Origin: Alicyclobacillus hesperidum
GTDB taxonomy: Bacteria > Bacillota > Bacilli > Alicyclobacillales > Alicyclobacillaceae
Length of the DNA stretch: 55,290 nt
Direction: 5' to 3'
Assembly: GCF_900107035.1 (NCBI RefSeq)
Contig: NZ_FNOJ01000019.1
Span: 1-55,290 of the forward strand
In this document: one piece after another, positions 44,323 through 55,290 of the stretch
Numbering within the stretch: the first letter of the stretch is position 1
How the letters are laid out: each line of letters starts with the position of its first letter
Notes under the pieces: generated by a model
The model's database searches: none
Told to the model about the DNA's origin: nothing
Seen by the model: only the letters and a program-made list of their open reading frames with translations
Translations under genes and position numbers: made by a program

Positions 44323-44610
44323 TTGGGCAACGCCCTCCGCCTTCGAATGTAGCAGGAATTCAAGTGTGGATCAAAAAAGTTGATTGATGATGAAACGAAA
44401 GCAGGGTGAGCGCCGTCTAATACGGTGGATGTGGGGGGGCGGTGCAAACTTGAATATCTGCTGGTTCTAGCGAAATGCATCGGAAAATTTTTAACGGCAC
44501 CCACAAATATCAGTTGCCTAGCGAATACATTAGCAGGGTTTCAAATGGCGCGCCAAACTTTGACGATCGCTGGAAAATTTGCTGATGGCGCTACAACTCC
44601 TACCACATAC
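44323..44610. other. AT-rich intergenic region
   Basis: Nearly 290 bases between the YigZ gene and the promoter at 44611. I see no credible gene. The sequence GGAAAATTT occurs twice (near 44472 and 44571), but no larger repeat or structured RNA was recognised. Confidence 0.5.
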
Positions 44611-44645: not shown

Positions 44646-45000
44646 CTGAGGCCTTGTCTTGGGATACATAATCTTCTAAGCGTGTGCTTCAGGCATGAGG
44701 TTAATTCAATATTCTTTCGATGTTTTTTTGGTAACATCGGAAGCTGATGGATTAGGTATAAGAGATAGACGCGGGTGCTCATGCACTGAAGGGAGGGATG
44801 TCTTCCTGTGGGTCGGAATTGTCGAGTTTGGTAGATCTATGGATGCCTAACACATGGAACGAAATCTTGTGGTGGGGTCTATGGGTCTTCGGTAGTCGAC
44901 ATGGGCGCGCAGGGACAGTGACGATGGCCAGTGGAAGGTGACCTTCGTCACCAATCTTCAGTACTCATCTCACTTGTTGGACATGGGAGGAGAATTTAAC
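44646..45000 (+). other. long 5' leader of the S-layer-like gene
   Basis: About 355 transcribed bases without a credible frame. Long leaders that raise mRNA stability are known for S-layer genes of other bacteria; here this is an inference. A second possible start point lies near GGTATAAGAG (44755-44764). GGGAGGAGAA precedes the TTG start. Confidence 0.5.
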
Positions 45001-47703
45001 TTGAAACGTGCACTGACAGGTTTCGCTGCGGCAGCGGTTGTTTTGGGCATGGCTTCACCGCTTGCATTTGCAGATACGTCCTCGAGCACTGCTTTGACCT
45101 CGGTTGGTCAGGTAGCTTTCAGCTTCAACGGTTCTACGGTCTCGAATCCGTACATCATGGACGGCCAAGACTCTGGCAACACAACGGCTTTTGCTCCTAT
45201 CTATTACTTTGATCAGCTGCTTGCAAAAGCGGGCATCACGGCTACCTGGAATGGCGCTACCCACACGTGGGCATTGACCGACTCCAGCTTAGATGCAGCA
45301 ACGGTTGCCGCGAACATCGCTGGTGGCGTGGGCACGGGTAACACGACGATCACCCTCAATGGTACGGTGATTAAGAAGATTAACACGCAAGTCGCGAAGG
45401 ATCCGGCTGGCGGAGCCAAAGCGCAGGCAACCACGTACTTCCCGGTATATTATGTTCAAACGTTGTTTGCTGCTATTGGTATCAATACTTCGTGGAACGG
45501 TGCGACAGGCTTGTCCGTAAGCTCGTCTGCTGCAACGGCGAAGCTTGCTAACTTGGTATTCTCGGGCGCCTCAATGGGGTCTGGCACACAGTCGTCTCCT
45601 GCAGTTGGCGTTAACGGGACGCCTGTTACGGCATCGACCACATTGACGGATGCGAACGGTAATCCGGTTGCGGGTATCAACGTTACCTTCGATATTGTTG
45701 GCAGCAGTCTGCCTGTTGTTACGTCCAACGGCGTAGCCCAAACGGTTAGTGGCTCTGGTACAGCTATGAGCCCATACACTGTTTCGGTTGCTACAAATGC
45801 AGCTGGTATTGCTTCTATCACGATTTCGTCCTCAAATGCTGTATCTTACACGGTTCAGGCTGTAGCTCCGTATAGCCAGAATGGTATTAGCGTGACGTCG
45901 AACACGGGTTACGTTGAGTTCGGCCAACCCGGTAATTTGTTGCTGACGCCCGTAGGCTCAGTCAGCGAGGCTTTCTCTACATCAAGTAACAGTGCAGGGT
46001 TGGTTCCCGTTACGGCTACTGTCATTCCAACAGCTTCTGGCGTTTCGGTGGCGAACATTCCTGTTCAATTTAGCGTAACTGGTTCGAACGCGTACCTTGC
46101 GACGTCGTCGGGTTCTTACCTTCAACCTTTAGGCGATCAAACCGTCTATACGAACGCGAACGGGCAGGCTACGATTTATGTGAATGCTACTCAGCAAGCG
46201 AATGTTACTGTGTCTGCCTCTGCGACTGTGAACGGCGTTCAAGAGACCTCGGCTACGACCAATATTAATTGGCAGGCTTCCGGTACGCCGGCTAGCATCT
46301 CTAACACCCCGACGGGAACAATTGCTGCTGCAACGGGCACCAACGTGACCATCAGTGGGACAGTAGAGGATTCGCTTGGTAACCCAGTACCAAATGCACA
46401 AATTTTAGTTAGTGGCTATGACAAGGGCAATGGTGACCTTGACTACGTAGCAGGTGGTACGTCAACGGCGTTCCCGAATGTGGGTAACGGAAGTCTTAGC
46501 GGCGCAGATGCAGCTTCGGCGTTCGGTGATCTGATTACCACGGATGCGAATGGGAATTTCTCTTTGACGGTTTCGGACAGCAGTGCAGAGACGGGTAACC
46601 TTTACGTCTATGCGGTGCAAAATGGTCAACTGGGCAGCCAGATTGGTCAGTACACGATAAACTTTACAAGCACTACGAGTGGTCTCAGCGCATCTTATGT
46701 TGATACAACCGCAAGCGGCCTGGGCACGACTTCTGCAAATGACGAGTACACGAAGTTGACTGGCCTCAACTACCAAGAGGGCGGTTCTACGACACAGGCT
46801 CCGATTTACGTGGGTGCGTTCTCTGGTTCGACACCGTTTACCTCTGGAGTGGTGCAGTATACCGTCACGTCGAATAACAAGGGTTATGTCGCTGCGGTTG
46901 ACGGTGTGGCTCTGAACGGCACCAATGCGCTTCCTAATGATCCATCTAGCGCAATAATTGACGTGACATATTCTGCCGGGGCGGTTTCGAATGTCACCGT
47001 TGATGGTACGTCAATCACGAAGTTGACGGGTTATTCGGCTCCTACTGCAGGTACGTTCACCTTCGTGCCTGGCGATAACAACGTTGAAAATGACACGTTC
47101 ACCGTTACGACTGGCAGCTTAAGCGATACGGTGGGTGCAAACTTCGTTGCAGGTGCTCCATCCGAAATCAGTAATGCAGGGTCGTTCACTGTGAGCCCAG
47201 GTCAAAGTCAAACGATCTCGTTTACAGTTGAAGATTCGAACGGCAATCCCGTTCCATACGGTGCTGTGTCACTCGCGTCGGATCTCAATACGAATAATCT
47301 GTGGATTACTGCTGTGAACGGCCAGCAACTGGCACAAACCGTCTATAGCGGTGGCACCAGCTATGGGACTCAGCCGACGCCAATTCCGCTCTTTACCTTC
47401 AGCCCTGCGAACAGTGGTAGCCTTGAGTCAAGCATCTACTTGAGTGGTGCTGTGTCCGCGACTGGCGTTGGAACAAACTCGCAAAATGTCACCGTTTATG
47501 CGAACCAGTCGGGTCAAGTATCTATTACGTTTACCGCAGGCGGCAACGGTTACTGGGATGCTACATCCTCGAACCCGGGTGTGGTTGGATCTCCGATTGC
47601 AAGCTCAGGCTCTGTGGCATACTTCTCATACGGAAGCAATGGCACCATCAATGTTAGCAGCACAGCGCCGGCAAGTGACGGCATTGGATCTCTCACCTAT
47701 TGA
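45001..47703 (+). CDS. S-layer-like secreted surface protein with Ig-like repeats
   Basis: A 900-residue secreted protein. The signal peptide is residues 1-24 (KRALTGFAAAAVVLGMAS, cleavage after AFA). Two copper-amine-oxidase-N/stalk-like repeats follow at about 40-92 and 115-172 (YYFDQLLAKAGITATWNG and YYVQTLFAAIGINTSWNG). Bacterial Ig-like units then recur with DANGNPVAGINVTF, DSLGNPVPNAQILV and DSNGNPVPYGAVSL. I see no cysteine and only one arginine, and the protein is very rich in Ser, Thr, Gly, Asn and Val, as in S-layer proteins. No SLH domain or LPxTG anchor is visible. The start is TTG 45001 after GGGAGGAGAA. Codon use is more AT-rich at third positions than in the housekeeping genes. 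It is monocistronic. Confidence 0.82.
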   Translation: MKRALTGFAAAAVVLGMASPLAFADTSSSTALTSVGQVAFSFNGSTVSNPYIMDGQDSGNTTAFAPIYYFDQLLAKAGITATWNGATHTWALTDSSLDAATVAANIAGGVGTGNTTITLNGTVIKKINTQVAKDPAGGAKAQATTYFPVYYVQTLFAAIGINTSWNGATGLSVSSSAATAKLANLVFSGASMGSGTQSSPAVGVNGTPVTASTTLTDANGNPVAGINVTFDIVGSSLPVVTSNGVAQTVSGSGTAMSPYTVSVATNAAGIASITISSSNAVSYTVQAVAPYSQNGISVTSNTGYVEFGQPGNLLLTPVGSVSEAFSTSSNSAGLVPVTATVIPTASGVSVANIPVQFSVTGSNAYLATSSGSYLQPLGDQTVYTNANGQATIYVNATQQANVTVSASATVNGVQETSATTNINWQASGTPASISNTPTGTIAAATGTNVTISGTVEDSLGNPVPNAQILVSGYDKGNGDLDYVAGGTSTAFPNVGNGSLSGADAASAFGDLITTDANGNFSLTVSDSSAETGNLYVYAVQNGQLGSQIGQYTINFTSTTSGLSASYVDTTASGLGTTSANDEYTKLTGLNYQEGGSTTQAPIYVGAFSGSTPFTSGVVQYTVTSNNKGYVAAVDGVALNGTNALPNDPSSAIIDVTYSAGAVSNVTVDGTSITKLTGYSAPTAGTFTFVPGDNNVENDTFTVTTGSLSDTVGANFVAGAPSEISNAGSFTVSPGQSQTISFTVEDSNGNPVPYGAVSLASDLNTNNLWITAVNGQQLAQTVYSGGTSYGTQPTPIPLFTFSPANSGSLESSIYLSGAVSATGVGTNSQNVTVYANQSGQVSITFTAGGNGYWDATSSNPGVVGSPIASSGSVAYFSYGSNGTINVSSTAPASDGIGSLTY

Positions 47704-49272: not shown

Positions 49273-51798
49273 GTGAGTGAACGAAATATGGGGATCACCC
49301 CTGAGCCGCGGTCAGAACTGACAAAATTTAAGTTCCATAAACGGGGGAGAAAGTGGCTATACGCTTCGGCGGCAGTTGTAATCGTTCTCGGAGCGGGCAT
49401 TCCAATTACTTTAAAAAGCTTAGGGAACGGTGCGTCGGTTGCTTCAAGTGAACTGTATACCGTTGGGTACGGCAACCTCGTAGAGTCCATCGATACATCA
49501 GGTACAATCGTCGCGCCGAGCCAGTATAGCCTAAGCTTTCAAGGAACGACTGCGCCTGTCACTGCTATTTATGTGAAGGTAGGTCAGTCTGTCAAGGCTG
49601 GTCAGGTGCTTGCGAGGATGGATGACAGTTCGGAACAGGTCGAGCTTCAGCAAGCTCGTGCAAGCGTTACCGAGGCCCAAGCTTCTCTCGAGTCGGCACA
49701 AGCAAAATTGGAGCAGGACGAGCAGGGAACCACGCCATCAACCATTGCGATGGACAAGAACGCGATTGCGGACGATGAGACCGCCGTACACGAGGCGAAG
49801 CAAGCCTATCAGCTGGCGCTGGCGCAGTATAACGACAGATCAAGTGAGGAGCAGGCTGTACAAACAGCAGAGGATAACCTCGCGGAGGCAAAGCAGCAGC
49901 TAGCCACTGCAACTGATTCAGTCGCGCTGGATCAACAACAAATTGCCAGCGATGAGGCTGCTATCAAGAATGCACAGCAACAGTTGAGCGAAGATCAACA
50001 ATCGACGCAGACCTCGGTTTCCGAGGCTGAGCAATCCCTTGCGGCAGACCAGCAGACGCTGGCCGATGATCAGCAAACGTTGTCCCAAGATGAACAGACC
50101 TTGCAGTCTGATGAGGCCAATTTGCAGACCGTGGAGCAGGAAAATGACAACGTGACGCAGGCACAGGTCGAACAGGCGTATGAGAAGTACGAAACAGAAC
50201 TCGGTTTTTCTAACAGTTGGATCGAGGGAGGATACACCGGAACGAATCCATACTCCTCGGCTGTAGCGAACTACCAGTCTATCTACGAGAATCTGAATAA
50301 TGAATACCAAGCAATTCAAAGCGCACAGAACACTGTGACATCGGATCAGACAAAGGTGACGAATGACGAAAAGGCCATCCAGCAGGATCAAAACAACATT
50401 GCGAAGGATCAGGACGAGATTGCCCAGGCGCAAACGAGTGCGCAGCAAACGGTGAATAAAGATCAACAAGCGGTGAGCAGCGACGAACAATCCCTGCAGA
50501 ATGAAGAGATTGTTCTAAAGAGCGACGAAGCGCAGGCGAAGTTGAATCAGCAAAAAGATCAGGATGCCGTCACCCAGGACGAGCAGGCATTGCAAGCGGA
50601 GGAAGAAGCATATAACAATCGAACCTCGGCGCAACAGACGCTCGATAATGCGAAGAACGCCGTGACACAATCGGAAGAATCACTCAGAACAGCTCAGTTG
50701 CAGTTGGAAAACGACCAACAACCAGCAACAAAGGCGACTATCGCATCGGACGAAGCATCGGTGACCAACGCGCAAGGCCAGTTGCAGACGGCAAAAGCCA
50801 ATTTGCAGTCTGCCGAACAGGCTGAATCAGAGACGATTTTGCGTGCGCCCATCGACGGTGTGATTACGGCTGTTAACGGTGAGATCGGTGAGCTACCTGG
50901 AGAAGGTGGTAGCAGTGCTTCGGCGAGTACATCTGCCTCTTCGGGAACGAGCAGTGGGTTTATCCAGTTGCAGGACTTGAATGCAAAGGATCTTGAAGTT
51001 GATCTTGAGGTTAGCGAATCTCAAATCGGAAGTATTCAGGTAGGGCAGAAGGTTTCCTTTACGGTACCTGCATATCCGAACAGCACGTACAATGGAACCA
51101 TTACGCAGGTCTACCCAACGCCAACGACTACCTCTGATGTAACACAGTATGAGGTGGTGGCGACGGTCGATAATTCCTCCGGGCAACTGAAGCCGGGTAT
51201 GACCGCGAGCGCGGTGATTCAAACCGCCTCAGTCACCCATGTGATCACGGTCCCTGCCATCGCTTTGCACCAGATAGGCAGCGTCGAGGGAGTATTTGTG
51301 GAAGGCAAGCGGCCAAGCGGGACAGCAGTCACATCCGCGGGGAAGACAGGTGGAAGCGTACATGGCAACGGTACATGGAAATCCAACGGCACCTCGAATG
51401 GCTGGAGACCCAGCAGTAAGGGCACTGGTATCACTGGCGGGACGAGTGGGAGTGCAGGCGGTGCGACTGCAACCAATACGTCAAGTGCGTGGGCAGCGAT
51501 GAGGTCCTCTTCTTCTGCGGCGTCCGGAACCATTCCTGCAGGTACGTATTTCCAACCTGTGCAGGTTGGTTTGATGGGCACAAGCGAAGTGGAGATTACA
51601 AGCGGTTTGACAGTTGGAGAAAAAATACTCATCACACTTCCTAGTAAGACTGCGACAGCGCTCGTTCAGAGTGAAAGTAGCGGCACCGGATTTGGGCATG
51701 GCTTTGGTGGCTTCGGTGGAGGCGGATTTTCCGCAGGAGGATTTACGGGAACAGGCCGCGGTGGTTATGACGCATCCGCCGGAGGTGGTCAGCAGTGA
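49273..51798 (+). CDS. HlyD/MacA-type efflux adaptor with very long coiled coil
   Basis: An 841-residue membrane fusion protein. A single membrane segment lies at about 27-47 (WLYASAAVVIVLGAGIPITL). The first lipoyl half-domain follows (about 60-115). About 400 residues of heptad-repeat helix follow, such as LAADQQTLADDQQTLSQDEQ, broken once near 295-345 by NSWIEGGYTGTNPYSS. The second lipoyl half (ILRAPIDGVITAVNGEIGE) begins near 520, then a beta-barrel to about 680. A Ser/Gly-rich insertion and a Gly-rich tail end the protein. Typical adaptors have 350-450 residues. The start is GTG 49273 or ATG 49288; neither has a good ribosome-binding site. It overlaps the ATPase gene (GTGA). Confidence 0.88.
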   Translation: MSERNMGITPEPRSELTKFKFHKRGRKWLYASAAVVIVLGAGIPITLKSLGNGASVASSELYTVGYGNLVESIDTSGTIVAPSQYSLSFQGTTAPVTAIYVKVGQSVKAGQVLARMDDSSEQVELQQARASVTEAQASLESAQAKLEQDEQGTTPSTIAMDKNAIADDETAVHEAKQAYQLALAQYNDRSSEEQAVQTAEDNLAEAKQQLATATDSVALDQQQIASDEAAIKNAQQQLSEDQQSTQTSVSEAEQSLAADQQTLADDQQTLSQDEQTLQSDEANLQTVEQENDNVTQAQVEQAYEKYETELGFSNSWIEGGYTGTNPYSSAVANYQSIYENLNNEYQAIQSAQNTVTSDQTKVTNDEKAIQQDQNNIAKDQDEIAQAQTSAQQTVNKDQQAVSSDEQSLQNEEIVLKSDEAQAKLNQQKDQDAVTQDEQALQAEEEAYNNRTSAQQTLDNAKNAVTQSEESLRTAQLQLENDQQPATKATIASDEASVTNAQGQLQTAKANLQSAEQAESETILRAPIDGVITAVNGEIGELPGEGGSSASASTSASSGTSSGFIQLQDLNAKDLEVDLEVSESQIGSIQVGQKVSFTVPAYPNSTYNGTITQVYPTPTTTSDVTQYEVVATVDNSSGQLKPGMTASAVIQTASVTHVITVPAIALHQIGSVEGVFVEGKRPSGTAVTSAGKTGGSVHGNGTWKSNGTSNGWRPSSKGTGITGGTSGSAGGATATNTSSAWAAMRSSSSAASGTIPAGTYFQPVQVGLMGTSEVEITSGLTVGEKILITLPSKTATALVQSESSGTGFGHGFGGFGGGGFSAGGFTGTGRGGYDASAGGGQQ

Positions 51799-52541
51799 CC
51801 GAATATGACTCTGGCGCGCGCGCAAGCAGGGATTTAATCGTGATCGAGAATCTCGTGCGAGAGTACCAGGTAGGTGGGCAAACCATCCGTGCCCTCGATG
51901 GTGTTACGCTTACCATTCAGCACGGAGAGTTTGTAGCCATCATGGGACCATCGGGATCTGGCAAGTCAACGATGATGAACATGATTGGGTGCCTTGATAC
52001 GCCCACGGCGGGGCGGTATTGCCTCGACGGGTTTGATGTGGCGCATCTTTCCGAGGATGACCTCGCGATGCTTCGAAATCAGAAAATAGGATTTGTGTTT
52101 CAAAGCTTCAATCTTCTGCCGCGGACGACAGCCTTGGAAAACGTTGAGTTGCCTATGATGTATCTCGGTGTACCGAGTAAAATTCGCAAGCAACGGGCAC
52201 TGGAGGCACTTCAGCGAGTGGGATTGGCGGAGCGCGTGTACAACAGGCCTAATGAATTGTCCGGGGGACAACAACAACGTGTCGCGATTGCACGCGCGCT
52301 GGTCAACAACCCCGTTTTAATTCTTGCGGACGAGCCAACTGGCGCGTTGGACAGTCGGACGACTGAGGATATCCTGAATTTGTTCGAAGAACTACACGCA
52401 CAAGGCAACACCATTGTTCTCGTTACGCATGAAGATGAAGTTGGCCGCCACGCGAAGCGGATTGTCCGATTTCGTGACGGTCGAGTAGAGCTTGACACGG
52501 GAGCGCAGCGGAAAGTGGGGGTGCCAAAGCATGTGGATTGA
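51795..52541 (+). CDS. ABC transporter ATPase, MacB/LolD type
   Basis: A 248-residue nucleotide-binding subunit. Walker A is GPSGSGKST (about residues 56-64), the Q-loop lies in FVFQSFNLLPRTTALENVEL, the signature is LSGGQQQRVAIARAL, Walker B is LILADEPTGALD and the switch histidine lies in VLVTHEDEV. The NxxLP sequence after the Q-loop is typical of the MacB/LolD group. GTG 51795 overlaps the adaptor stop codon. It overlaps the permease gene, so the three proteins are made together as a MacAB-like exporter. Confidence 0.94.
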   Translation: MTEYDSGARASRDLIVIENLVREYQVGGQTIRALDGVTLTIQHGEFVAIMGPSGSGKSTMMNMIGCLDTPTAGRYCLDGFDVAHLSEDDLAMLRNQKIGFVFQSFNLLPRTTALENVELPMMYLGVPSKIRKQRALEALQRVGLAERVYNRPNELSGGQQQRVAIARALVNNPVLILADEPTGALDSRTTEDILNLFEELHAQGNTIVLVTHEDEVGRHAKRIVRFRDGRVELDTGAQRKVGVPKHVD

Positions 52542-53748
52542 GATCATGCGTGTAGCGTGGAGGAGTGTGCGGGCGAACAAGATGCGCTCATTCCTGACGA
52601 TGCTTGGCATCATCATTGGCGTTATGGCAGTGGTACTCAGTTCAGCCATTGGTCTGAGCGCGAAGGCAGGAGTCACAAAACAGGTTGAGAACCTTGGCAC
52701 CAACGTTCTGACGGTGATGCCTGGATCCGCATCCTCCGGAGGCATTAGCCGCGGTTTCGGCTCCGCCTCAACGCTCACGACTTCAGATGCTACGGCGATT
52801 GCGGAGCAGGATCCTGATGTTCAGTACGTGGCACCGCTCGTATCTTCGGATCAACAGGTTGTATATGGGACGAATAACACCAACACAGCCATCGAAGGCA
52901 CCAATGCTGAATATCCGGATATAAAGAACCTCACGATGGCTGAGGGACGATTTTTTCTGGAATCAGAGGTCAACAGTGCTGCGAACGTTGCTGTTTTGGG
53001 GAGCCAGGTAGAGGAGACGCTTTTTTCCGGCGAACGTGTTAACCCAGTAGGGCAGACCATTGACATCGGTGGGATTCCCTTCACAGTGGTAGGGGTGGCG
53101 GCGAGTCAAGGAACCAGCGGATTCTCAAACCAAGATGACGCCATCGCCATTCCGATTACCACGGCGATGAACTTATTCACAGGATCCGATACCGTAAACC
53201 AGATCCTCGTCTCAGCAAAGTCGCAGGACGTGATGGATCAAGCGCAACTGGAAGTCGAGTCAACCTTGCGTGTCCAGCACCAACTGAGCGCAGCAACGGC
53301 GGATGACTTTCAGATTAGCAATCAAGCCACCATTTTAAATACGTTAAGCGGTGTGGACAGGATCTTGACGCTTTTGTTAGACGGGATCTCAGCAATATCG
53401 TTGCTCGTGGGCGGAATTGGAATCATGAACATCATGCTCGTGTCCGTTACGGAGCGAACTCGCGAAATTGGTATTCGCAAGGCGATTGGAGCCAAGCGAA
53501 GCGTCATTTCCATGCAGTTCCTGCTAGAATCGTTGATGTTGAGTGTGTCAGGGGCAATTGTCGGGCTGATATTGTCCTCCATCGGCACGGAGATTGTGTC
53601 GAAATTGACGCAGGATGGAAACTTGCTTTCTCCAGTCGCAGTGGGTGCATCGATGGGATTTTCCGTCGCAATTGGGCTGATCTTTGGTGTGTATCCTGCA
53701 CGCAAGGCGGCAAACCTCAAGCCAATTGACGCGCTGCGCTTCGAATAG
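52531..53748 (+). CDS. ABC transporter permease, MacB/FtsX family
   Basis: A 405-residue permease with the MacB layout: N-terminal helix (NKMRSFLTMLGIIIGVMAVV), a large extracytoplasmic domain (about 45-275), then three membrane helices containing SLLVGGIGIMNIMLVSVTER, TREIGIRKAIGAKR and the C-terminal GVYPARKAANLKPIDALRFE. In Gram-positives such systems export peptides or sense antimicrobial peptides. ATG 52531 is 8 bases after GGGGGTG and lies inside the ATPase gene. Confidence 0.94.
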   Translation: MWIEIMRVAWRSVRANKMRSFLTMLGIIIGVMAVVLSSAIGLSAKAGVTKQVENLGTNVLTVMPGSASSGGISRGFGSASTLTTSDATAIAEQDPDVQYVAPLVSSDQQVVYGTNNTNTAIEGTNAEYPDIKNLTMAEGRFFLESEVNSAANVAVLGSQVEETLFSGERVNPVGQTIDIGGIPFTVVGVAASQGTSGFSNQDDAIAIPITTAMNLFTGSDTVNQILVSAKSQDVMDQAQLEVESTLRVQHQLSAATADDFQISNQATILNTLSGVDRILTLLLDGISAISLLVGGIGIMNIMLVSVTERTREIGIRKAIGAKRSVISMQFLLESLMLSVSGAIVGLILSSIGTEIVSKLTQDGNLLSPVAVGASMGFSVAIGLIFGVYPARKAANLKPIDALRFE

Positions 53749-54002
53749 TGGAGTCCTAATTGTGAGTTGGGTGATCTCTGCAGCCGTATGGTTGCCGGGG
53801 TCACCCTTTCGCATCCAGGAGCGATAGTTGCCGTCTTGCGGAAACGGATGAAACGAGATGTTGCAATGAGAGGACGACGCCCCTCCCCCGTTTTCTCACC
53901 CCAAACATAGCGGTGGTCATGCGTGCGACACAACGCTTTGGTAATCATCCCCTCAACCCCCGCAGTTTTTTCGAATCTCTCGAATCCTCTCGTAGGTAGG
54001 TC
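53749..54002. other. intergenic region upstream of the riboswitch
   Basis: About 250 bases after the permease gene. No gene or clear sigma-A promoter is visible, though the riboswitch transcript must begin here or be read through from the exporter operon. A short inverted repeat TTCGA/TCGAA lies at 53970-53984. Confidence 0.4.
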
Positions 54003-54078
54003 AAAGGCAAACCATGTGAAAGCATGGGACGCAAAGCTAAAGGGGCTTGGCCAAGTGGCCGTGCCAGCCAGCTGCCCG
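54003..54078 (+). ncRNA. cyclic di-GMP-I (GEMM-I) riboswitch
   Basis: The aptamer core matches the GEMM-I consensus. P1a pairs GGCA (54006-54009) with TGCC (54073-54076). P1b is CCATGT/GCATGG closed by the GAAA tetraloop (54018-54021). The invariant joining sequence GGGACGCAAAGC lies at 54026-54037. P2 is the GGCC/GGCC-centred stem at 54044-54065, followed by the GCCAGC strand returning to P1a. It lies 50 bases before the start codon of a secreted protein gene. No terminator follows, so control is probably at translation. Confidence 0.92.
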
Positions 54079-54127
54079 CTTGGGCCCAATGACCACCAGA
54101 CAGAGCATTTATGGGAGGAATTCAGGA

Positions 54128-54889
54128 ATGGGCCGTTTTACAAAGAAGTCTATCATGTCTATCGCAACTGCCGCTGTCGTTACGCTATCCGCGACCTCCA
54201 TGGTCTATGCAGCCGTACGCGGGGATATCCATCGCGCGAATCCTGGCCACAACAGAGGCTGGAGCTTCTCGGCCGATGCGAATGAAAGTGACATGACCAA
54301 TGTTACGGTCGGCAATTCAACTGCGACTGTCGCGACGAACTCGACGGCCAATTCGAGCGGGGAGAATCAGCAAGGGCCATGGGACAAGCGTGATCGCGAC
54401 GATAGAAAGGATGCGGACGACAAGCATCAGAAGAAACCTGATGTAGATAAGCAGCAAGTTGTGCTGATGCAAGCAGCGCATCGCCTTTCGGCGGAGGTCA
54501 ACGTGAAACTCGCACTGGCGCATGCGCAGCTTGAACGAGCAATTGCGAAGGCAAAAGGCAATGAAGCGGCCATCACGGCAGCCATCGCGGCGTATGAAAC
54601 GGAGGTTCAAAAAGCACTTGCACAGTTGCAAACAGGCTGGAGCAAGGCTGAGACGACGGTTCAGACGACCACGACCGCAAGCACGAGTGGTAACACCACG
54701 GTGAGCACGACAAACGGCACTGGCGATGTCGCAGGGAATTCGACAAGCAACACCGCTACGGCATCGGGTAGCAACGCCACGGCAAATGACACGAGCAACA
54801 GCACAGGCGGTGTCACGGTGACGACAAGCAATGCCACGGCCAATACTACGTCGAATACCAGCACTGTATCAAATGGCACCACCAATTGA
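54128..54889 (+). CDS. secreted Ser/Thr/Asn-rich protein under c-di-GMP riboswitch
   Basis: A 253-residue secreted protein. The signal peptide is about 1-29 (KKSIMSIATAAVVTLSATS, cleavage near VYAA). A short linker and an acidic/basic stretch (DKRDRDDRKDADDKHQKK) precede a helical segment (about 115-180, VVLMQAAHRLSAEVNVKLAL and onward) that recalls DUF5667-type domains. The last 70 residues are a Thr/Ser/Asn repeat like a glycosylated stalk. ATG 54128 is 9 bases after GGGAGG. The riboswitch upstream implies c-di-GMP control, so a role in adhesion, biofilm or the motile-to-sessile change is likely but unproven. The family is not recognised. Confidence 0.82.
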   Translation: MGRFTKKSIMSIATAAVVTLSATSMVYAAVRGDIHRANPGHNRGWSFSADANESDMTNVTVGNSTATVATNSTANSSGENQQGPWDKRDRDDRKDADDKHQKKPDVDKQQVVLMQAAHRLSAEVNVKLALAHAQLERAIAKAKGNEAAITAAIAAYETEVQKALAQLQTGWSKAETTVQTTTTASTSGNTTVSTTNGTGDVAGNSTSNTATASGSNATANDTSNSTGGVTVTTSNATANTTSNTSTVSNGTTN

Positions 54890-54919: not shown

Positions 54920-54946
54920 AGCCCGCTTTTTCCAAGCGGGCTTTTT
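54920..54946 (+). terminator. rho-independent terminator after the secreted protein gene
   Basis: AGCCCGCTT/AAGCGGGCT stem with loop TTTCC followed by TTTT. It is also the insertion target of the group II intron that begins 4 bases later. Confidence 0.92.
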
Positions 54947-54949
54947 GTA

Positions 54950-55290
54950 GTACGCCCAGCATGGGCGGAATCTTTAGGGTGTAAGTCCCGAACGGGGGTT
55001 GGCGACATACCTACCGTTAGCCAAGAGCAAGGGTGTCCACCGTGAGGTGGAATCTGAAGGAAGCTGGAGGCAAACCCTCGACCTGAGGTACACGAATCGC
55101 ATTTGAGGCTGTCATAGTTGGACGAGTTGCCTACACACAACGAAGTCCTAAGTCGCCAAGAGCTACGGCAGTAAACTGCGGCAGGTACGTGAGGGGAAAG
55201 AGTCCGTTCTTATCTGGGGAGACCTGTCTGCGCGCTAGCAAGGCTAGTAACCGTCATCGAGAGGTGACGCTGAACAGGCAGGGGTCAGCA
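54950..55290 (+). mobile_element. group IIC intron, 5' part (runs off the window)
   Basis: The sequence from GTACGCCCAGCATGGG onward follows the 5' region of bacterial group IIC introns such as the Oceanobacillus iheyensis intron: AGGGTGTAAGTCCCGAAC, CCGTTAGCC, GCAAGGGTGTCC, GGTGGAATCTGAAGGAAGC, GGCAAACCCTCGACCTGAGG, ACACGAATCGCATTTGAGGC, ACGAAGTCCTAAGT and GGGGAGACCTGTCTG. This covers domain I and the beginning of what follows. The first bases read GTACG instead of the usual GTGYG. Insertion directly behind a terminator hairpin is the known habit of class C introns. The reverse transcriptase gene and the 3' end would lie beyond the window. Confidence 0.9.

Follow-up and report, generated by a model that had tools for sequence, protein, structure and literature searches.

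A c-di-GMP-I riboswitch aptamer and a putative sigma-I promoter upstream of a secreted-protein gene in Alicyclobacillus hesperidum

The leader and its secreted-protein gene

The window analyzed here is a 55,290-nt stretch of the Alicyclobacillus hesperidum assembly GCF_900107035.1 (contig NZ_FNOJ01000019.1). Near its 3' end, on the forward strand, an aptamer of the c-di-GMP-I (GEMM-I) class lies directly ahead of a gene for a predicted secreted protein (Table 1). A covariance search (cmscan) matched RF01051 over its full length, model positions 1-87 of 87, at 63.7 bits (E 3.4e-10) against a gathering score of 35, which confirms the complete c-di-GMP-I aptamer described in a first-pass annotation of this DNA. 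The start given there, 54003, lies seven bases inside the matched span. The window shares with RF01051 the conserved core, the tetraloop hairpin and the receptor arm. It differs in that P1 closes 13 nt farther downstream on the 3' side and that a competing hairpin extends into this 13-nt segment; the Rfam structure line itself is without P1 pairs. If Vc2 numbering falls on the Rfam model as we assume, the bases expected at G20 and C92 are both present (G54006 and C54076). By its sequence the aptamer belongs to the regular c-di-GMP-I riboswitch class, with c-di-GMP as the predicted ligand, and it stands before an uncharacterised secreted-protein gene. Five c-di-GMP-I aptamers were identified in the genome as a whole (2.86 Mb in 53 contigs).

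Table 1 Features of the leader and gene, in window coordinates
Feature	Position	Strand	Basis or remark
Putative sigma-I -35 element, ACCCCC	53956..53961	+	Exact ACCCCC-N19-CGAA
Putative sigma-I -10 element, CGAA	53981..53984	+	Placed at -14 to -11 following PMC10575876
Predicted transcription start (+1)	53995..53995	+	From placement of CGAA
Extended P1, 5' strand (GGU a GGUCA)	53995..54003	+	Minimum-free-energy structure, enforced folds
c-di-GMP-I (GEMM-I) aptamer	53996..54079	+	RF01051 match above gathering score
G at the presumed Vc2 G20 position (ligand selectivity)	54006	+	Rfam alignment
Competing hairpin GCCC-GCUU-GGGC	54074..54085	+	Captures aptamer 3' strand including presumed C92 equivalent, 54076
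13-nt segment, pocket to P1 3' strand	54077..54089	+	
GGCCCA, candidate anti-start element	54083..54088	+	Kept in A. tengchongensis and A. sacchari
Extended P1, 3' strand (UGACC ACC)	54090..54097	+	Minimum-free-energy structure, enforced folds
Shine-Dalgarno sequence GGGAGGA	54113..54119	+	By reading
Secreted Ser/Thr/Asn-rich protein, 253 aa, signal-peptide-like start	54128..54889	+	Helices 106-142, 146-183
TGGGCC at start codon, partner of GGCCCA	54129..54134	+	By position
Terminator-like hairpin GCCCGCTT/AAGCGGGC + T5, after gene	54921..54946	+	By reading

By reading, the product begins with a signal-peptide-like segment and ends in a tail rich in Ser, Thr and Asn, in line with the secreted Ser/Thr/Asn-rich protein of the first-pass annotation. 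Its AlphaFold model is mostly of low confidence (mean pLDDT 46.9) and contains two helices, with a block of pLDDT 74-86 for residues 111-170. No Pfam family exceeded its cut-off for this product, no NCBIfam family matched at E 0.1, and no sequence relative was found in the PDB at E 0.01; two NCBIfam families each weakly match one other family member (0.0026 and 0.024). Kinship to DUF5667/RsgI-type proteins, suspected from a resemblance, was not supported, given the Pfam result for the window protein and given that DUF5667 is absent from the 21 Pfam families matching any of the six members at E 5. The MacAB-like ABC exporter encoded before the gene (49273-53748) was rejected as a partner, since tblastn at 1e-10 finds none in five 14-kb homolog stretches from four relatives.

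A simple scan of the + strand found no intrinsic terminator between the aptamer and the gene, in agreement with the first-pass annotation. The whole leader is no more stable than its shuffles (z +0.71). At the terminator-like hairpin behind the gene, the scan lists a hairpin on the - strand only. A group II intron domain (RF02001, 135 bits, window 55036-55208) is found about 90 nt past this hairpin and ends 82 nt short of the contig end. Group IIC introns insert behind terminators, and this element may be such an insertion.

When 61 genomes (own and relatives) were searched with the protein, seven had matches, two of them weak and dropped; a profile search across 41 genomes of the family identified six loci, which belong to five genomes of a single genus. 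These are the window locus, its two nearest orthologs in Alicyclobacillus tengchongensis and A. sacchari, two loci in a genome designated G014 (G014a and G014b), and one in a genome designated G001. A c-di-GMP-I-type aptamer lies just upstream at all six, which indicates that the link between gene and riboswitch is conserved. The aptamer of G014a scored 60.3 bits with the related model RF03167 and 63.2 bits with RF01051. Of the protein matches, the two weak ones (G031, E 7e-5; G006, E 0.001) were rejected, their loci being without an aptamer match and their genomes without a profile match at 1e-6. A protein-only scan of genome contigs with the window protein gave no relatives; the alignment scan found two.

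The predicted sigma-I promoter

An exact ACCCCC-N19-CGAA motif lies upstream of the aptamer. The sigma-I consensus described for Bacillales is ACCCCC--AA 15(N) CGAA----T (PMC4711584), with which the window shares the -35 element, the spacing and the -10 element; it differs in having AG for the AA extension and C for the T after the -10. The CGAA of sigma-I promoters sits at -14 to -11 (PMC10575876), and the predicted +1 therefore falls on the first base of P1. A sigI gene is present in the genome (SigI, 223.6 bits against a cut-off of 185); what reads as an RsgI-like ORF follows it, and an exact copy of the sigma-I consensus precedes it. Across the genus, the exact 19-nt-spaced motif stands before sigI in 11 of 15 genomes. 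Both features that we take to mark a sigma-I regulon member, the upstream motif and a sigI gene in the same genome, are thus present for the window gene.

The exact motif occurs five times in the genome: before the window gene, before sigI and at three sites not properly before a gene, two of which lie inside ORFs and the third of which overlaps a hairpin-like stretch where a gene ends (by reading). A reversed-motif control occurred ten times genome-wide, so the motif is not enriched by count, and for the sigma-I reading it is the position before the aptamer that counts and not the number of motifs. Leaving G001 aside, all five loci place CGAA 22-25 nt ahead of the aptamer core, and their spacers have diverged. 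At a distance of exactly 19 nt upstream of CGAA stands a hexamer that agrees with ACCCCC in 6, 6, 4, 5 and 5 of six positions, being exact at two of these loci and degenerate at three. With a matrix built from 11 sigI promoters, the window site ranked second of 110512 window positions, and first when the promoters of A. hesperidum, A. tengchongensis, A. sacchari and G014 were left out of the matrix. Among 27934 positions, the ranks were 1 for A. tengchongensis, 26 for A. sacchari, 14 for G014a and 16 for G014b; G001 had no such site (rank 376 of 27934). A variable-gap version of the pattern search was rejected as too noisy for use.

The motif might instead be a chance match, with the promoter depending on another sigma factor, a question that is independent of how the switch works. 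The degenerate -35 hexamers at three of five loci, the departures from consensus beside both elements and a count no higher than that of the reversed control are all consistent with this. We consider it unlikely, in view of the near-fixed place of the motif before the aptamer across diverged spacers, the top rank of the window site under a matrix excluding the genomes concerned, and a simple scan of the + strand that found no sigma-70-type promoter between 53700 and 55290. A sigma-I input would, by analogy, correspond to envelope or heat stress. With this promoter, the predicted 5' end of the RNA is a single defined base. Among the open-licence papers searched, judged from titles and the opening lines of abstracts, no report linking a c-di-GMP riboswitch to SigI was found, and a search there for c-di-GMP riboswitches in Alicyclobacillus gave only work on a mycobacterial potassium transporter.

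A second sigma-I-like site is located at window 44497-44530, about 440 nt before the gene for a secreted Big_1-domain protein (44938-47703). It scored 16.6 bits (rank 1) with the 11-promoter matrix and 12.6 bits (rank 3) with a 7-promoter matrix. No RNA family was found between 44300 and 45100 at E 1.

The ligand-selectivity position

In the Rfam alignment, the window carries G at the G20-equivalent position, against A in A. tengchongensis and A. sacchari, and the five other aptamers of those two genomes carry G. A partial reading also showed an A at this position in L035 and L106, two aptamers that relatives carry elsewhere in their genomes. Position 20 has been described as a selectivity factor (PMC9262584), and a G20A aptamer as able to bind cGAMP (PMC7288161). 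Compared with the GEMM-Ib (3',3'-cGAMP) riboswitches of Geobacter, the two orthologs share the A, whereas the window has G and so falls outside the GEMM-Ib subclass. Of 24 GGDEF hits in A. tengchongensis and A. sacchari, 20 carry Asp at what we take to be the place of the Hypr signature within the GGDEF motif; the remaining four comprise two second domains not read separately and two degenerate ones. Hypr-type GGDEF proteins are distinguished by a Ser/Asp signature (PMC6456294), and with Asp in these 20 no Hypr-type cGAMP synthase was seen among the hits of either genome, a further difference from Geobacter. The A in these two species may tune c-di-GMP sensing only.

Start-codon pairing and the direction of switching

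The first-pass annotation proposed that GGCCCA, just after the aptamer, pairs with TGGGCC at the start codon, so that ligand binding masks or frees the start. Both elements are where it placed them, and TGGGCC includes the last two bases of the ATG (54128-54130). Among 5000 dinucleotide shuffles, however, a fraction of 0.178 gave a match of at least 6 bp between such segments, as did 0.090 of the 7858 pairs of window segments with equal spacing, and the TGGGCC half also encodes a conserved Met-Gly-Arg. The complementarity was thus observed correctly but, taken by itself, lacks significance. A. tengchongensis and A. sacchari retain GGCCCA, TGGGCC and P1 but differ in the spacer that separates the two halves, and all three species have the identical 18-nt block behind the aptamer (CGCTTGGGCCCAATGACC) beside a spacer that diverges. 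The pairing is invariant in the three of six loci that carry it, and therefore shows no covariation. Comparison across relatives, which the annotation had put forward as a check, bears out the complementarity in the two nearest orthologs and finds it missing from G014a, G014b and G001. Of the annotation, the aptamer, the lack of a terminator in the scan and the secreted protein are supported, as is a conserved link between gene and aptamer; the pairing, by itself within chance, is only a candidate for the switch. We regard a start-codon mask in the window as a possibility.

Three features go beyond that annotation, namely the P1 extension, the competing hairpin and the predicted sigma-I promoter. 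The extended P1 is part of the minimum-free-energy fold of the window, but its 3' side lies 13 nt downstream. A contiguous-run test of P1 was not significant (0.61 in A. hesperidum, 0.32 in A. tengchongensis and 0.62 in A. sacchari); P1 of A. sacchari has GGC...GCC against GGU...ACC in A. hesperidum, a two-sided change. The sequence of the hairpin is identical in the two orthologs. In the modelled ligand-free ensemble, taken at three 3' ends, P1 and the competing hairpin occur together at 79-81% in A. hesperidum, 55-78% in A. sacchari and 9-39% in A. tengchongensis.

Our best explanation, which as a whole we hold tentatively and at a little under an even chance, combines a sigma-I promoter with a translational OFF c-di-GMP-I switch. 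A sigma-I-dependent promoter would transcribe the gene from the first base of the riboswitch, and the leader would act on translation. Without ligand, P1 and the competing hairpin would form together, the hairpin holding the aptamer 3' strand. Binding of c-di-GMP would draw this strand into the pocket and open the hairpin, and the GGGCCCA so freed would pair across the start codon as a pseudoknot, lowering translation. Ligand binding, use of sigma-I, the start-codon pseudoknot and the OFF direction are the parts of this model that we infer. Vc2 of Vibrio cholerae is a translational OFF GEMM-I switch (PMC9262584, citing the primary paper), and the window shares with it the aptamer class and the proposed masking of the translation start, but differs in platform sequence and gene, its direction being predicted only.

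Should the extended P1 close, the start-codon pairing could only be a pseudoknot. In the fold model, the open-pocket state lies about 7-8 kcal/mol above the free ensemble. With an assumed pseudoknot penalty and stacking summed by hand, pairing after opening was favourable in nine of nine combinations of species and length at a penalty of 7 kcal/mol, and in five of nine at 9.6 (A. hesperidum at +30, all three for A. tengchongensis, and A. sacchari at +12). Nested folds with the aptamer and P1 enforced gave no change in ribosome-site accessibility in A. hesperidum when the RNA ended at +12, +30 or +60 nt of coding sequence: for the Shine-Dalgarno sequence the values were 0.64, 0.43 and 0.34 both free and bound, and for the AUG they were 0.01, 0.20 and 0.15 free and 0.01, 0.19 and 0.15 bound. 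When the aptamer was enforced without P1, the expected pairs between the freed segment and the ribosome region rose from 0.25 to 12.07 at +30, from 0.01 to 1.57 at +12 and from 0.00 to 0.09 at +60, but AUG accessibility at +30 went up, from 0.20 to 0.42, and not down. With nested folds unchanged when P1 is enforced and the AUG more accessible at +30 when it is not, our lean to the OFF direction is only weak. The unchanged accessibility and the minority state of the hairpin in A. tengchongensis also temper our confidence in the explanation as a whole. Given a working switch, we would put OFF at roughly an even chance.

The G014 orthologs point the other way. In both, by reading, an anti-Shine-Dalgarno element CCTCC(A), complementary to GGAGG, overlaps the P1 3' strand. 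Each P1 5' strand (AGGUCGG:CCGACCU in G014a, AGGCUGGA:UCCAGCCU in G014b) pairs with its own partner over 7 and 8 bp, respectively, against 3 and 4 bp with that of the other locus (values from shuffles, 0.0020 and 0.0132). With the aptamer and P1 enforced, modelled Shine-Dalgarno accessibility at +30 rises from 0.12 to 0.59 in G014a and from 0.29 to 0.88 in G014b. The effect depends on the 3' end chosen, the corresponding changes being 0.00 to 0.20 and 0.18 to 0.21 at +60, and 0.54 to 0.94 and 0.93 to 0.94 at +12. These models predict ON switches in G014, the opposite of what we propose for the window. Were the window switch also ON, ligand would stabilise P1 and keep its 3' strand off the ribosome site, translation would rise with c-di-GMP, and the GGCCCA/TGGGCC match would be incidental or act only when P1 is open. 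Orthologous riboswitches usually retain one polarity, which favours an ON switch here too. However, reading of the window clade revealed no strong anti-Shine-Dalgarno element, its P1 3' strand (54090-54097) and GGCCCA (54083-54088) do not overlap, and the G014 effect itself varies with the 3' end. We regard ON in the window as somewhat unlikely, yet as a serious rival to the weakly favoured OFF direction.

It is also conceivable that the aptamer binds its ligand and that the switch lies elsewhere, in mRNA stability, Rho-dependent termination or ribosome standby, with no base-paired mask of the start. This would agree with a complementarity that is within chance, with the unchanged accessibility of A. 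hesperidum in nested folds with P1 enforced, and with G001, where, by reading, a terminator-like hairpin with a T run takes the place of the start mask. The identity of the 18-nt block in three species beside a diverging spacer speaks against this, however, and we judge a switch located elsewhere to be quite improbable.

For Alicyclobacillus-type bacteria, the locus supplies a specific candidate for control of a surface gene by c-di-GMP. Two signals may control this one gene, since its riboswitch leader is apparently transcribed from a sigma-I promoter; if both inputs act, an envelope-stress sigma factor would be tied to second-messenger control at a single gene. The sigma-I promoter and the changes of platform among orthologs are the part of most interest. 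A broader proposal, which we rate as unlikely, is that this secreted-protein family is under two stacked inputs, sigma-I for transcription and a cyclic-dinucleotide riboswitch for translation, and that polarity changed within the family (a start-codon mask, OFF, in the window clade; an anti-Shine-Dalgarno element, ON, in G014; a terminator in G001) while two species changed the ligand-selectivity base. With polarity and that base both changing within the family, the evolution of riboswitch logic could be read in one orthologous set. The orthologs have three different platforms and a G/A change at the base for ligand selectivity, and so lend themselves to direct tests of how platform and ligand use evolved.

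Three other aptamers of the A. hesperidum genome lie beside genes of recognizable type. One c-di-GMP-I aptamer (in L003, region 1501-2213, from G000:C32:246041 on) is found about 30 nt before a SinI-like ORF, which scored 31.3 bits against a cut-off of 31.4 and is followed by a SinR-like gene; a putative c-di-GMP riboswitch has been described before sinI in Bacillus methanolicus (PMC4342826). Two more (L002 and L004) precede PAS/GGDEF-type genes, an assignment that rests on Pfam for the gene of L004 only, and by reading are followed by terminator-like hairpins. A role of these two aptamers in feedback on c-di-GMP turnover is possible.
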